NCBI GenBank assembly: GCA_030765785.1
Contig: JAVCCC010000055.1
Coordinates: 1 to 39,647 of the forward strand
DNA: 39,647 bases
From: Candidatus Aceula lacicola
Lineage (GTDB): Bacteria; Omnitrophota; Gorgyraeia; Zapsychrales; Aceulaceae
Direction of reading: 5' to 3'
A program made the position numbers and the translations under genes. Under the pieces are notes generated by a model, which worked only from the letters and a program-made list of their open reading frames with translations, searched no databases and had not been told where the DNA came from. Shown here piece by piece: positions 22,764-25,356 of this stretch (positions within the stretch are counted from its first letter, which is position 1; every line of letters starts with the position of its first letter).

Positions 22764-24455
22764 TTAAATATTTTCTTCTTGTGTAACCCGAATAACTTCG
22801 CTTGGACTTGTTAATCCGCTCTTAATTTTTTCCCAACCGCTCTCTCTCAATGTTTTCATTCCAAATTCTACGGCTTTATTCTTTATTTGTGCAGCAGAAG
22901 CTTTCTGAAGTATCAAATCTCTGATCTCTTCATTTAAAACTAAAAACTCATAAATTCCTTGCCTGCCCTTATATCCTGTCATGCCGCAAAACTCGCACCC
23001 TTTTCCCTCGTAAATAATAACATCTTGCAAATCCTCTTGTTTTAACCCAAGGCTCTGAATCATCTCTGGGGTTATCTTAGCAGGCTGCTTACATTTTGGG
23101 CAAATTAATCGCACAAGCCTCTGAGCAATAAAACACAATACCGAACTAGAAATCAAATACGACTCTATGCCCATATCTAAAAGACGCGCAACAGCGGATG
23201 CCGCATCATTTGTATGAAGCGTTGAGAAAACAAGATGTCCTGTTAGCGCCACCTGGATCGTAATTTCAGCCGTTTCCGCATCTCGAACCTCACCGACCAT
23301 CATAACATCCGGATCATGACGCAGCATGGATCGAAGACCGGCAGCAAACGTAAGGCCAACCTGAGAATTAATTTGAATCTGTGTAATTCCTTTAAGCTGA
23401 TACTCAACAGGATCTTCTATTGTTATAATCTTTTTTTCAATGCTATTAATTTTAGAAAGACAAGAATAAAGTGTCGTTGTTTTTCCACTTCCCGTCGGGC
23501 CCGTCAAAAATATAATACCATGCGGCTTTTTAATCAAACTCGATAAAAGAACTTCATTTTGCTTGTCCAACCCTAAATCTAACAAACTATAAAGCTTTGT
23601 TGAACTCAAAAGACGAATAACAACACTCTCTCCATAAGGTGTCGGTAAAAATGAAACTCTCAAATCTAAATCAGCATTCTTAGTTCTCACCTTAAAACGT
23701 CCATCCTGAGGAAGTCGTTTTTCTGCAATATTTAAATTCGACATAATTTTAATACGCGAATTAATTGAATCCTTAAAATGCTTAATATTCGCAGGAACTT
23801 TTGCATCATGCAAAAGACCATCAACACGATACCGAACATTAAGCTCATCTTCAAATGGCTCAATATGAATATCTGTCGCACCATCTCGATATGCTTCTAA
23901 AAGAATCTGATTAATAAATTTTCCTATCGAGGCTTCAGAATCAAGCTCCTCTAAATCTTCGTGACCTAAATCCTCCTCAATAACAGAAACACCATCCATC
24001 ATCTTTTCAATAGTTTGCGCCCCTAATCCATAATATTTTCGAATGGCCTCCTCAATATCTTTGTGGCTTGCCAAAACAGCGTCTACCTTAGCCTTTGCCG
24101 CAAGAGCAACATCATCTAAAACATGAATATCTAAAGGATTTGTTAATGCAATTGTTAAAATATTGTTTTTGTATTCAACGGGCATAATTTTATAATAATC
24201 AACAATTTTGGCAGGAACACGCTTAACCACATCAGAAGAAATAGAAAAATCTTTTAAATTAATAAACGGAACATCGAGCTGCTCTGAAAGGATCGGAAGA
24301 TAAATTTTCTCCTCGTCTACAAATCCAAGCCGAACCAATGTGACACCCAGCATCTCCTTGGTTTGCTTCTGTTCATCCAATGCTTGATTGAGTTGATCAA
24401 CACTAATAATATTCTTTTCGACGAGAAGCTGTCCTATGGGAGATTTTGATTTCAT
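22764..24455 (-). CDS. gspE: Secretion ATPase GspE/PilB-like
   Basis: 563 residues. An N-terminal MshEN/T2SSE_N domain (IGQLLVEKNIISVDQLNQAL, KEMLGVTLVRLGFVDEEKI) is followed by the catalytic half: GPTGSGKTTTLYS (Walker A), MMVGEVRDAETAEI (Walker B), the His box TGHLVFSTLHTNDA, and four zinc cysteines (CPKC...CEFC). It drives pseudopilus assembly. In the MshEN motif the usual Arg and Gly are replaced by Pro and Asn, so c-di-GMP binding is doubtful. It has its own transcription context, apart from gspF, and a structured leader. Confidence 0.94.
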   Translation of the reverse strand: MKSKSPIGQLLVEKNIISVDQLNQALDEQKQTKEMLGVTLVRLGFVDEEKIYLPILSEQLDVPFINLKDFSISSDVVKRVPAKIVDYYKIMPVEYKNNILTIALTNPLDIHVLDDVALAAKAKVDAVLASHKDIEEAIRKYYGLGAQTIEKMMDGVSVIEEDLGHEDLEELDSEASIGKFINQILLEAYRDGATDIHIEPFEDELNVRYRVDGLLHDAKVPANIKHFKDSINSRIKIMSNLNIAEKRLPQDGRFKVRTKNADLDLRVSFLPTPYGESVVIRLLSSTKLYSLLDLGLDKQNEVLLSSLIKKPHGIIFLTGPTGSGKTTTLYSCLSKINSIEKKIITIEDPVEYQLKGITQIQINSQVGLTFAAGLRSMLRHDPDVMMVGEVRDAETAEITIQVALTGHLVFSTLHTNDAASAVARLLDMGIESYLISSSVLCFIAQRLVRLICPKCKQPAKITPEMIQSLGLKQEDLQDVIIYEGKGCEFCGMTGYKGRQGIYEFLVLNEEIRDLILQKASAAQIKNKAVEFGMKTLRESGWEKIKSGLTSPSEVIRVTQEENI

Positions 24456-24461
24456 AATTAT

Positions 24462-24571
24462 TGACCTTTTCTCAACTAAAGATAATGGTAGTCAAAATAT
24501 TCTGGTCTTTTCTCAATGTGAAAAAGGTCTCAATATTGGTTTCCATAATATCTTTAATTCAGAAAAGACCA
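24462..24571 (-). promoter_or_regulatory. Candidate cis-regulatory RNA leader of gspE
   Basis: Four segments lie in the leader in mRNA order. A is TGGTCTTTTCT (24571-24561), D is GACCTTTTTC (24529-24520), B is AGAAAAGACCA (24513-24503) and C is AGAAAAGGTCA (24472-24462), which contains the ribosome site nine bases before the ATG. A pairs perfectly with B (11 bp). D pairs with C over eight bases plus a G-U. A can also pair with C over 11 positions with two G-U. A:B and D:C cannot both form as simple nested stems, so the leader offers an open and a closed form of the ribosome site. No known riboswitch class is recognised. Confidence 0.5.
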
Positions 24572-24586
24572 ATAAAGAAAATAATG

Positions 24587-25120
24587 CTAACGAGGATTTC
24601 TTACCGTTACTCGATAATAATCTCGAGAAAAATCATCTATAGATTTCTTTACAGGATTGGCATACGAGACAATATCGTAAGATTTGTCAACTACAGCGTC
24701 TGCAATCTTTTCGTTTACAACAACGCCGTCTGAACGTTTTATTTCATCATAAACACCTAAATATGATCCAGGCACAAGCCCGTTAACGACTCCCAGCGTG
24801 ACCATGCACCTCGATGACTTCCGGTCAATCCACATAATGCCATCTTTGCGATCAAGCTCTTGGCCACCATAAATGATTTCGGCTTTTGCCAAAACATCTT
24901 CAATCTTAATCGGATCTCTTTTAACTTTTTTCTGATCCGATTCAGAGAGAAAGCTTTGACTTTTTTCAGATATTAAATTGGCAAGCTGAGCTTGGAGGGC
25001 ATCTGCTTCTTGAGTGTTTTCTTTATTTCTTTGATCAATAAAATAAGAAACAGCTGTCACACATACGAAAGCAACAACAATCAGTAAGAGACCTATAAGA
25101 ATTTTAGTTTTATTATTCAT
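24587..25120 (-). CDS. Membrane-anchored protein of unknown function upstream of gspE
   Basis: 177 residues. A short cytoplasmic tip, one membrane helix (about residues 6-28) and a charged, probably coiled-coil stretch (QEADALQAQLANLISEKSQSF) lead to a beta-rich C-terminal part. VTLGVVNGLVPGSYLGVYD and IADAVVDKSYDIVSYANP are reminiscent of small periplasmic domains seen next to flagellar or pilus genes, but I do not recognise the family. It ends 131 bases before gspE. Its topology resembles bitopic coupling proteins of secretion systems, so a role in this machine is a guess from context. Confidence 0.6.
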   Translation of the reverse strand: MNNKTKILIGLLLIVVAFVCVTAVSYFIDQRNKENTQEADALQAQLANLISEKSQSFLSESDQKKVKRDPIKIEDVLAKAEIIYGGQELDRKDGIMWIDRKSSRCMVTLGVVNGLVPGSYLGVYDEIKRSDGVVVNEKIADAVVDKSYDIVSYANPVKKSIDDFSRDYYRVTVRNPR

Positions 25121-25233: not shown

Positions 25234-25262
25234 TTGAATCCTAATAAAAAATATGCCATACT
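25234..25262 (+). promoter_or_regulatory. Promoter of a candidate small RNA
   Basis: -35 TTGAAT (25234-25239), 17-base spacer, -10 CATACT (25257-25262) on the plus strand. No open frame of any length follows before a terminator about 60 bases on. Confidence 0.55.
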
Positions 25263-25268
25263 TAAATT

Positions 25269-25353
25269 AGAAAGAGGAGGTAGGAGATAGCGAAAGCGAT
25301 CAAGGTCTATCACCTTATAAGAAAGGCTCCCAAATAAGTTGGGGGCCTTTTTA
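25269..25353 (+). ncRNA. Candidate small RNA, about 85 bases
   Basis: It runs from the predicted start near 25269 to a terminator. The middle folds as GGT/ACC and GATAG/CTATC around a GCGAAAGC tetraloop (25279-25313). It begins with a purine-rich, anti-SD-competing stretch GAAAGAGGAGG. The terminator is GGCTCCC (25325-25331) with GGGGGCC (25341-25347), then TTTTT. No known family (6S, SRP, tmRNA, RNase P) is recognised. Because the terminator abuts the pgi stop on the other strand, the structure could also serve only to end pgi transcription. Confidence 0.45.
25325..25353 (+). terminator. Terminator between the small RNA and pgi
   Basis: Seven-pair GC-rich stem (one G-U) with a nine-base loop and TTTTTATTT behind it on the plus strand. 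The pgi stop lies four bases further on, in the opposite direction, so it may work for both. Confidence 0.75.
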
Positions 25354-25356
25354 TTT

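Follow-up and report, generated by a model that had tools for sequence, protein, structure and literature searches.

Bacterial MITEs are short, A+T-rich elements with terminal repeats and TA ends that duplicate their target (PMC2229807). ERIC (also IRU or RU-1) is a 127-bp enterobacterial repeat (PMC2229807, PMC2267715) that has been described as one long stem-loop (PMC2267715), and in Yersinia it has been reported to act on mRNA by conformational change (PMC2229807). The Correia (NEMIS) elements of Neisseria carry TA-flanked terminal inverted repeats and can be transcribed with neighbouring genes. RUP is a 107-bp repeat of the pneumococci with a matching insertion sequence, IS630-Spn1. Translational riboswitches and other leader switches hide or free a ribosome site through alternative pairings.

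The stretch analysed here lies ahead of gspE in Candidatus Aceula lacicola (Omnitrophota), within a window of 39,647 nt (positions 1 to 39,647 of contig JAVCCC010000055.1). An initial annotation had read it as a leader dedicated to gspE, either a riboswitch, a protein-autoregulated leader or a small-RNA target. The same ~116-bp sequence occurs at unrelated loci, both in this genome and in others, and is missing from empty sites, and we estimate a probability of roughly 90% that a dispersed, short non-coding MITE-like element inserting at TA left one of its copies here. The element belongs with ERIC, RUP and Correia among the bacterial MITEs, and the family, spread over an order of uncultured bacteria, is apparently undescribed; a search of the open literature for a described gspE leader or Omnitrophota repeat returned nothing relevant. 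By description, the likeness to ERIC covers a similar size, an imperfect palindrome, a TA-ended terminal repeat and target duplication, as well as a mostly intergenic position, a long RNA hairpin and the ability to lie within mRNAs, while ERIC's description sets it apart by host group and by its single long stem-loop in place of the crossing pairs A:B and D:C found here. RUP is similar in size, in its short terminal repeats and in its insertion at TA. The features given above for Correia are likewise shared, but the contiguous terminal repeat of the present element is shorter. The resemblance to riboswitches is one of working only, as the element is not bound to one gene or pathway, is not kept before gspE in relatives and has no Rfam match.

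The element copy ahead of gspE

The feature first placed at positions 24462 to 24571 is real and extends on both sides to a full element (Table 1). The pairings A:B, D:C and A:C are present in the sequence as they had been described. A:B is a perfect 11-bp inverted repeat, an equally long one appearing in 5 of 300 dinucleotide shuffles, and the outer arms (24458-24484 and 24549-24575) form a 27-nt inverted repeat that is 85% complementary. The alternative pairings come from the outer repeats A and C and from their inverted copies further in, B for A and D for C. The identity of the gene as a secretion ATPase is borne out by its Pfam domains, and the nearest named relatives of the protein belong to Omnitrophota genomes. 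Its ATG begins at 24455, 3 nt past the element, and the ribosome site does lie within C, where the AAGG of the right terminal repeat can serve gspE. The stop codon of the upstream gene lies ~12 nt ahead of the element.

Table 1. Positions of the element copy, its parts and the flanking genes in the window.
Feature	Position	Strand	Basis
Whole mobile element copy	24459-24574	minus	116 bp, counting the TA at either end; matches positions 1-116 of the covariance model at 106.2 bits; multi-copy; TA ends like other copies
Left terminal repeat TATTGGTCTTTTCT	24561-24574	minus	contains segment A; left end conserved, 38 copies
Segment A, TGGTCTTTTCT	24571-24561	minus	inside left terminal repeat
Segment x	24540-24560	minus	complementary to x'; copy-specific x:x' z 3.3, within genomes 2.3
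Segment b, CCAATATT	24532-24539	minus	left tip in inverted copy; TAYTGG/CCARTA variable letter agrees 39/39
Segment D, GACCTTTTTC	24529-24520	minus	inverted copy of C; D:C co-variation
Segment B, AGAAAAGACCA	24513-24503	minus	inverted copy of A; A:B co-variation
Segment x'	24473-24490	minus	partner of x in minimum-energy fold; x:x' co-variation
Right terminal repeat AGAAAAGGTCAATA	24459-24472	minus	contains segment C; right end conserved across copies
Segment C, AGAAAAGGTCA	24472-24462	minus	inside right terminal repeat
gspE-type ATPase gene	22764-24455	minus	Pfam T2SSE 437.9 bits, MshEN 61 bits
Upstream 177-aa gene	24587-25120	minus	no Pfam match; gene order same in G001-G003

A promoter-like site, TTGACA-17-TAAAAA, lies on the minus strand ahead of the 177-aa gene (25179-25151) and is not listed by a separate scan; both hexamers are kept in a congener (G001), the spacer between them having diverged. 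Judged by its sequence, this is likely the promoter of a transcript running from the upstream gene into gspE, and given such a site the element would be transcribed mid-way within a single mRNA.

Copies in the genome and in its relatives

The consensus of the family reads TA-TTGGTCTTTTC...GAAAAGGTCAA-TA with terminal inverted repeats, and copies of 108-122 bp span from TA-[T/C]TGG[T/C]CTTT[T/C]C to GAAAAGGTCAA-TA, the end sequence also being written TACTGGCCTTTTC. The terminal dinucleotides are nearly invariant (first two letters, T in 35/38 and A in 37/38; last two, T in 38/38 and A in 34/38). MITEs are expected to be shorter than ~200 bp and to encode no protein, and both hold here; the short frame of the gspE copy has no ATG start in the G001 sequence. 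Terminal inverted repeats with TA ends and multiple dispersed copies complete the description.

Within the A. lacicola genome (G000), BLASTN with the leader returned three further places: one on contig C4 (88% identity), one between infC and rpmI on C23 (78%) and one ahead of a ferredoxin gene on C15 (72%), the neighbouring genes being named from their translations. A covariance model built from relatives found a fifth full copy on C55, and on C45 a ~39-nt remnant immediately precedes a start codon, bringing the genome to at least five full copies and a short remnant. At the C55 copy (L204:1725-1753), a 136-aa gene takes its final codons from the left end of the element. Across the order, BLASTN matches occurred in 13 of 54 genomes, with up to 16 in one genome, while the covariance model matched at least 16 of 383 related genomes at more than 60 places and in every orientation to genes, counts that are minima because few candidates were scored per genome. 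Among the copies of G008, some at unrelated sites are almost identical to one another.

Genes flanking 38 copies, called by a simple longest-open-frame rule, were divergent at 11, both reversed at 11, both co-directional at 9, convergent at 4 and incomplete at 3; the family has no fixed orientation to genes. All five full copies of G000 point with the downstream gene, a suggestive pattern that counts against the MITE reading, in a small sample.

Several variants were observed among the relatives. In G059 a 77-110-nt subfamily lies at the ends of contigs C2, C5, C6, C24, C26 and C28, a placement that suggests a high copy number which broke the assembly. Longer variants of ~180-200 nt (L116, L120 and L122 in G010; L131 and L132 in G005) have a left part with another hairpin-forming sequence, e.g. 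GATGAAACTAGGATTAGTACTTGTTT...ACAAGTA, that is the same in several places, and by their sequence these variants read as composite elements. A 95-bp variant in G013 (L130:1502-1596) combines the same terminal repeats with an unrelated centre. In G008 (L010, ~1504-1616) a GC-rich palindrome, GCGCGGGGCGGGCC...GGCCCGCCCCGCGC, has the element in its loop, an arrangement that looks like insertion into a terminator or a different repeat. Three copies (L019, L128 and L129) lie inside long open reading frames.

Filled and empty sites

The cleanest empty site is on contig C54 of A. lacicola, where ATTTT-TA-TTATAT stands against ATTTT-TA-element-TA-TTATAT in G001. Conversely, the infC-rpmI spacer holds TA-element-TA in A. 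lacicola and a single TA without the element in G001, with one extra T besides. The element is also absent from G001 at the C15 and C4 loci, where the spacers are too diverged to show the exact join. Filled and empty sites thus show target duplication at TA, though an element that ends in TA and inserts without duplication would look identical. Together, the TA ends and the filled and empty sites give the pattern of bacterial MITEs (PMC2229807).

G001 has the insertion before gspE at the position that it occupies in A. lacicola (L006). A further congener (G002) and a member of the next genus (G003) keep the upstream gene and gspE without the element, with spacers of ~26 and ~20 nt, and no element match was found at 27 gspE-type loci of named and unnamed relatives. 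Conservation of segments A to D in homologous gspE leaders, on which the initial annotation had staked its proposal, is thus confined to two genomes. Since the element is shared by A. lacicola and G001 and absent from G002 and G003, the simplest reading of these sequences is that insertion between the 177-aa gene and gspE took place in an ancestor common to the first two. It should be noted that empty sites of this kind make it possible to date the arrival of element copies.

Co-variation of crossing pairs and candidate mobilisers

Segments were compared position by position over 39 copies. The complete agreement between the tip of A and b (Table 1) consists of 29 T-A and 10 C-G pairs. The variable letter of A:B agrees in 34 of 36 copies, the remainder being T-G; for this single letter a within-genome shuffle test was not significant (p 0.49) because the letter varies mainly between genomes. 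For D:C the variable letter is Watson-Crick in 37 of 39 copies (T-A 19, G-C 12, C-G 6) with the remainder T-G, an agreement reached by 0 of 5000 shuffles, including those that exchanged letters only among the copies of one genome, although shuffles model relatedness incompletely. An alignment-free test on fixed segments gave z 6.4 for A:B (3.4 within genomes) and 8.4 for D:C (5.0), with x:x' as listed in Table 1, and placed A:C and D:B at chance. The order A-x-D / B-x'-C combined with this co-variation means that A is kept as an approximate complement of B, and D of C. The crossing pairs A:B and D:C are therefore the conserved ones, and they are a property of the element family rather than of gspE. 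Co-variation, for which the initial annotation had suggested testing homologous gspE leaders, exists over the 39 family copies, and the element is missing from the gspE leaders of G002 and G003 and from the 27 gspE-type loci.

That the co-variation is crossing rather than nested is unexpected for a palindromic MITE and yields a testable prediction on how the element is recognised. One tentative explanation is that the element works as a single strand, either DNA or RNA, and that selection maintains a fold with A:B and D:C present at once, as a pseudoknot, or alternating with the long hairpin, for instance during transposition by a single-strand enzyme of the HUH/Y1 type. Such a fold fits the co-variation of A:B, D:C and x:x' and its lack in A:C and D:B; wherever A6:B or D7:C2 departs from Watson-Crick pairing the letters are G-T, and on a rough, weak tree from which D and C were left out the state of the D:C pair changed ~8 times and the C letter 6 times. 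However, a protein binding two kinds of end repeat as duplex, at left and right end sites that co-evolve, could produce the same pattern, as could template switching that copies one arm to the other; the latter is disfavoured by the sequences, with D:B, the closest pair, lacking co-variation. Antisense strands also fold slightly better on average (-32.3 vs -30.1 for the sense strand), so there is no sign of selection on a sense-strand RNA.

The search for transposases bears on the same question. Y1 transposases were present in 7 of 10 genomes, several carriers among them, but not in G000, G002 or G016, of which G000 and G016 carry the element. No element-like ends flank the Y1 genes, and near one lies an apparently separate element copy. 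An IS630-type transposase was rejected as the mobiliser: no DDE_3 domain (PF13358) was detected in eight carrier or related genomes, which counts against an IS630-derived MITE and differs from RUP with its matching IS630 element. DDE_Tnp_1 occurred in two genomes only and was absent from the carriers with the most copies. Among the DDE_3, Y1_Tnp and DDE_Tnp_1 loci of these draft assemblies, no autonomous element or transposase had the ends of the family, and the MITE would have been moved in trans by a transposase outside them. In its general form, the proposal of a selected fold describes an Omnitrophota family with repeats ordered alpha-x-beta / alpha'-x'-beta', pairing outer left with inner right and inner left with outer right, that would function in transposition as single-stranded DNA, or else as RNA, and would deliver the same fold to any gene before which it lands; we regard it as conceivable but rather doubtful.

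Folding of the leader and possible effect on gspE

The 147-nt leader does fold more stably than expected (-34.1 kcal/mol, z -4.05; none of 200 shuffles reached this). The switch-like pairings of the initial annotation survive in that A:B and D:C co-vary across the family; the minimum-energy fold of the gspE copy, on the other hand, is the long A:C hairpin with the ribosome site closed, and not A:B. Enforcing A:B or D:C carries a predicted cost of ~11 or ~12.5 kcal/mol (ensemble energies -38.1, -27.3 and -25.6). At equilibrium, the RNA would mainly form the A:C hairpin, covering a ribosome site now supplied by the right end of the element. RNAalifold over all copies returned only the A:CCAATA pairing because the right half was misaligned, and a cleaner alignment seed recovered A:B and a right-end hairpin. 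Across the window, Rfam at the gathering score identified tRNAs only, and a permissive search gave nothing credible over the element.

If the element affects gspE at all, it would do so in the manner of an ERIC-like insert, through damped or translation-coupled expression or mRNA processing, and not as a dedicated sensor. The predicted fold, in which the A:C hairpin buries the ribosome site, makes an effect on gspE possible, and by analogy with ERIC such an effect could act through the mRNA. A stronger version, to which we give perhaps one chance in three at most, holds that the insert has been co-opted as a working gspE leader, the hairpin hiding the ribosome site until it is opened by a ribosome ending the upstream gene or by A:B forming first during transcription, which would couple translation of gspE to that of its upstream neighbour. 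This would suit the closed fold and the short distance to the upstream stop codon, and A:B does form first when growing prefixes are folded computationally. The orthologous copies of A. lacicola and G001 are also 85% identical, compared with fourfold sites at 58% in gspE and 55% in the upstream gene, a retention that could reflect function at this site. Yet identity over all alignment columns is 68-84% in other between-gene stretches of the region, some of them resembling unannotated coding sequence, so constraint on the gspE copy is suggested only. A, D and B hardly differ between the two genomes, but C, the ribosome-site arm, is among the most changed parts, and for the G001 copy the predicted fold is A:B and a local hairpin at the start codon without the long A:C hairpin; a conserved switch is thus not supported, and gspE in G002 and G003 does without the element altogether. 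As for the separate control of gspE dosage that had been proposed, nothing in the analysis shows control by the element.

A gspE-specific riboswitch, autoregulated leader or small-RNA target, attractive for the mutually exclusive pairings laid out around the ribosome site, is very improbable given the same sequence at unrelated genes, its absence from the other gspE leaders and the lack of any Rfam family above the gathering score, and a false lead is thereby removed. With the stretch read as a MITE copy, two minor observations may be added. An ATG-led frame of ~23 codons ending just before the gspE ribosome site was considered as a leader peptide and rejected, its start being ATA in G001. On the plus strand at 25243-25356, the block AGGAGGTAGGAGATAGCGAAAGCGATCAAGGTCTATCACC is followed by a strong terminator-like hairpin (25320-25352); this region matches no Rfam family above the gathering score, is near-identical in G001 against fourfold sites diverged to 58%, and is possibly a small RNA or the structured 3' end of the phosphoglucose isomerase gene.
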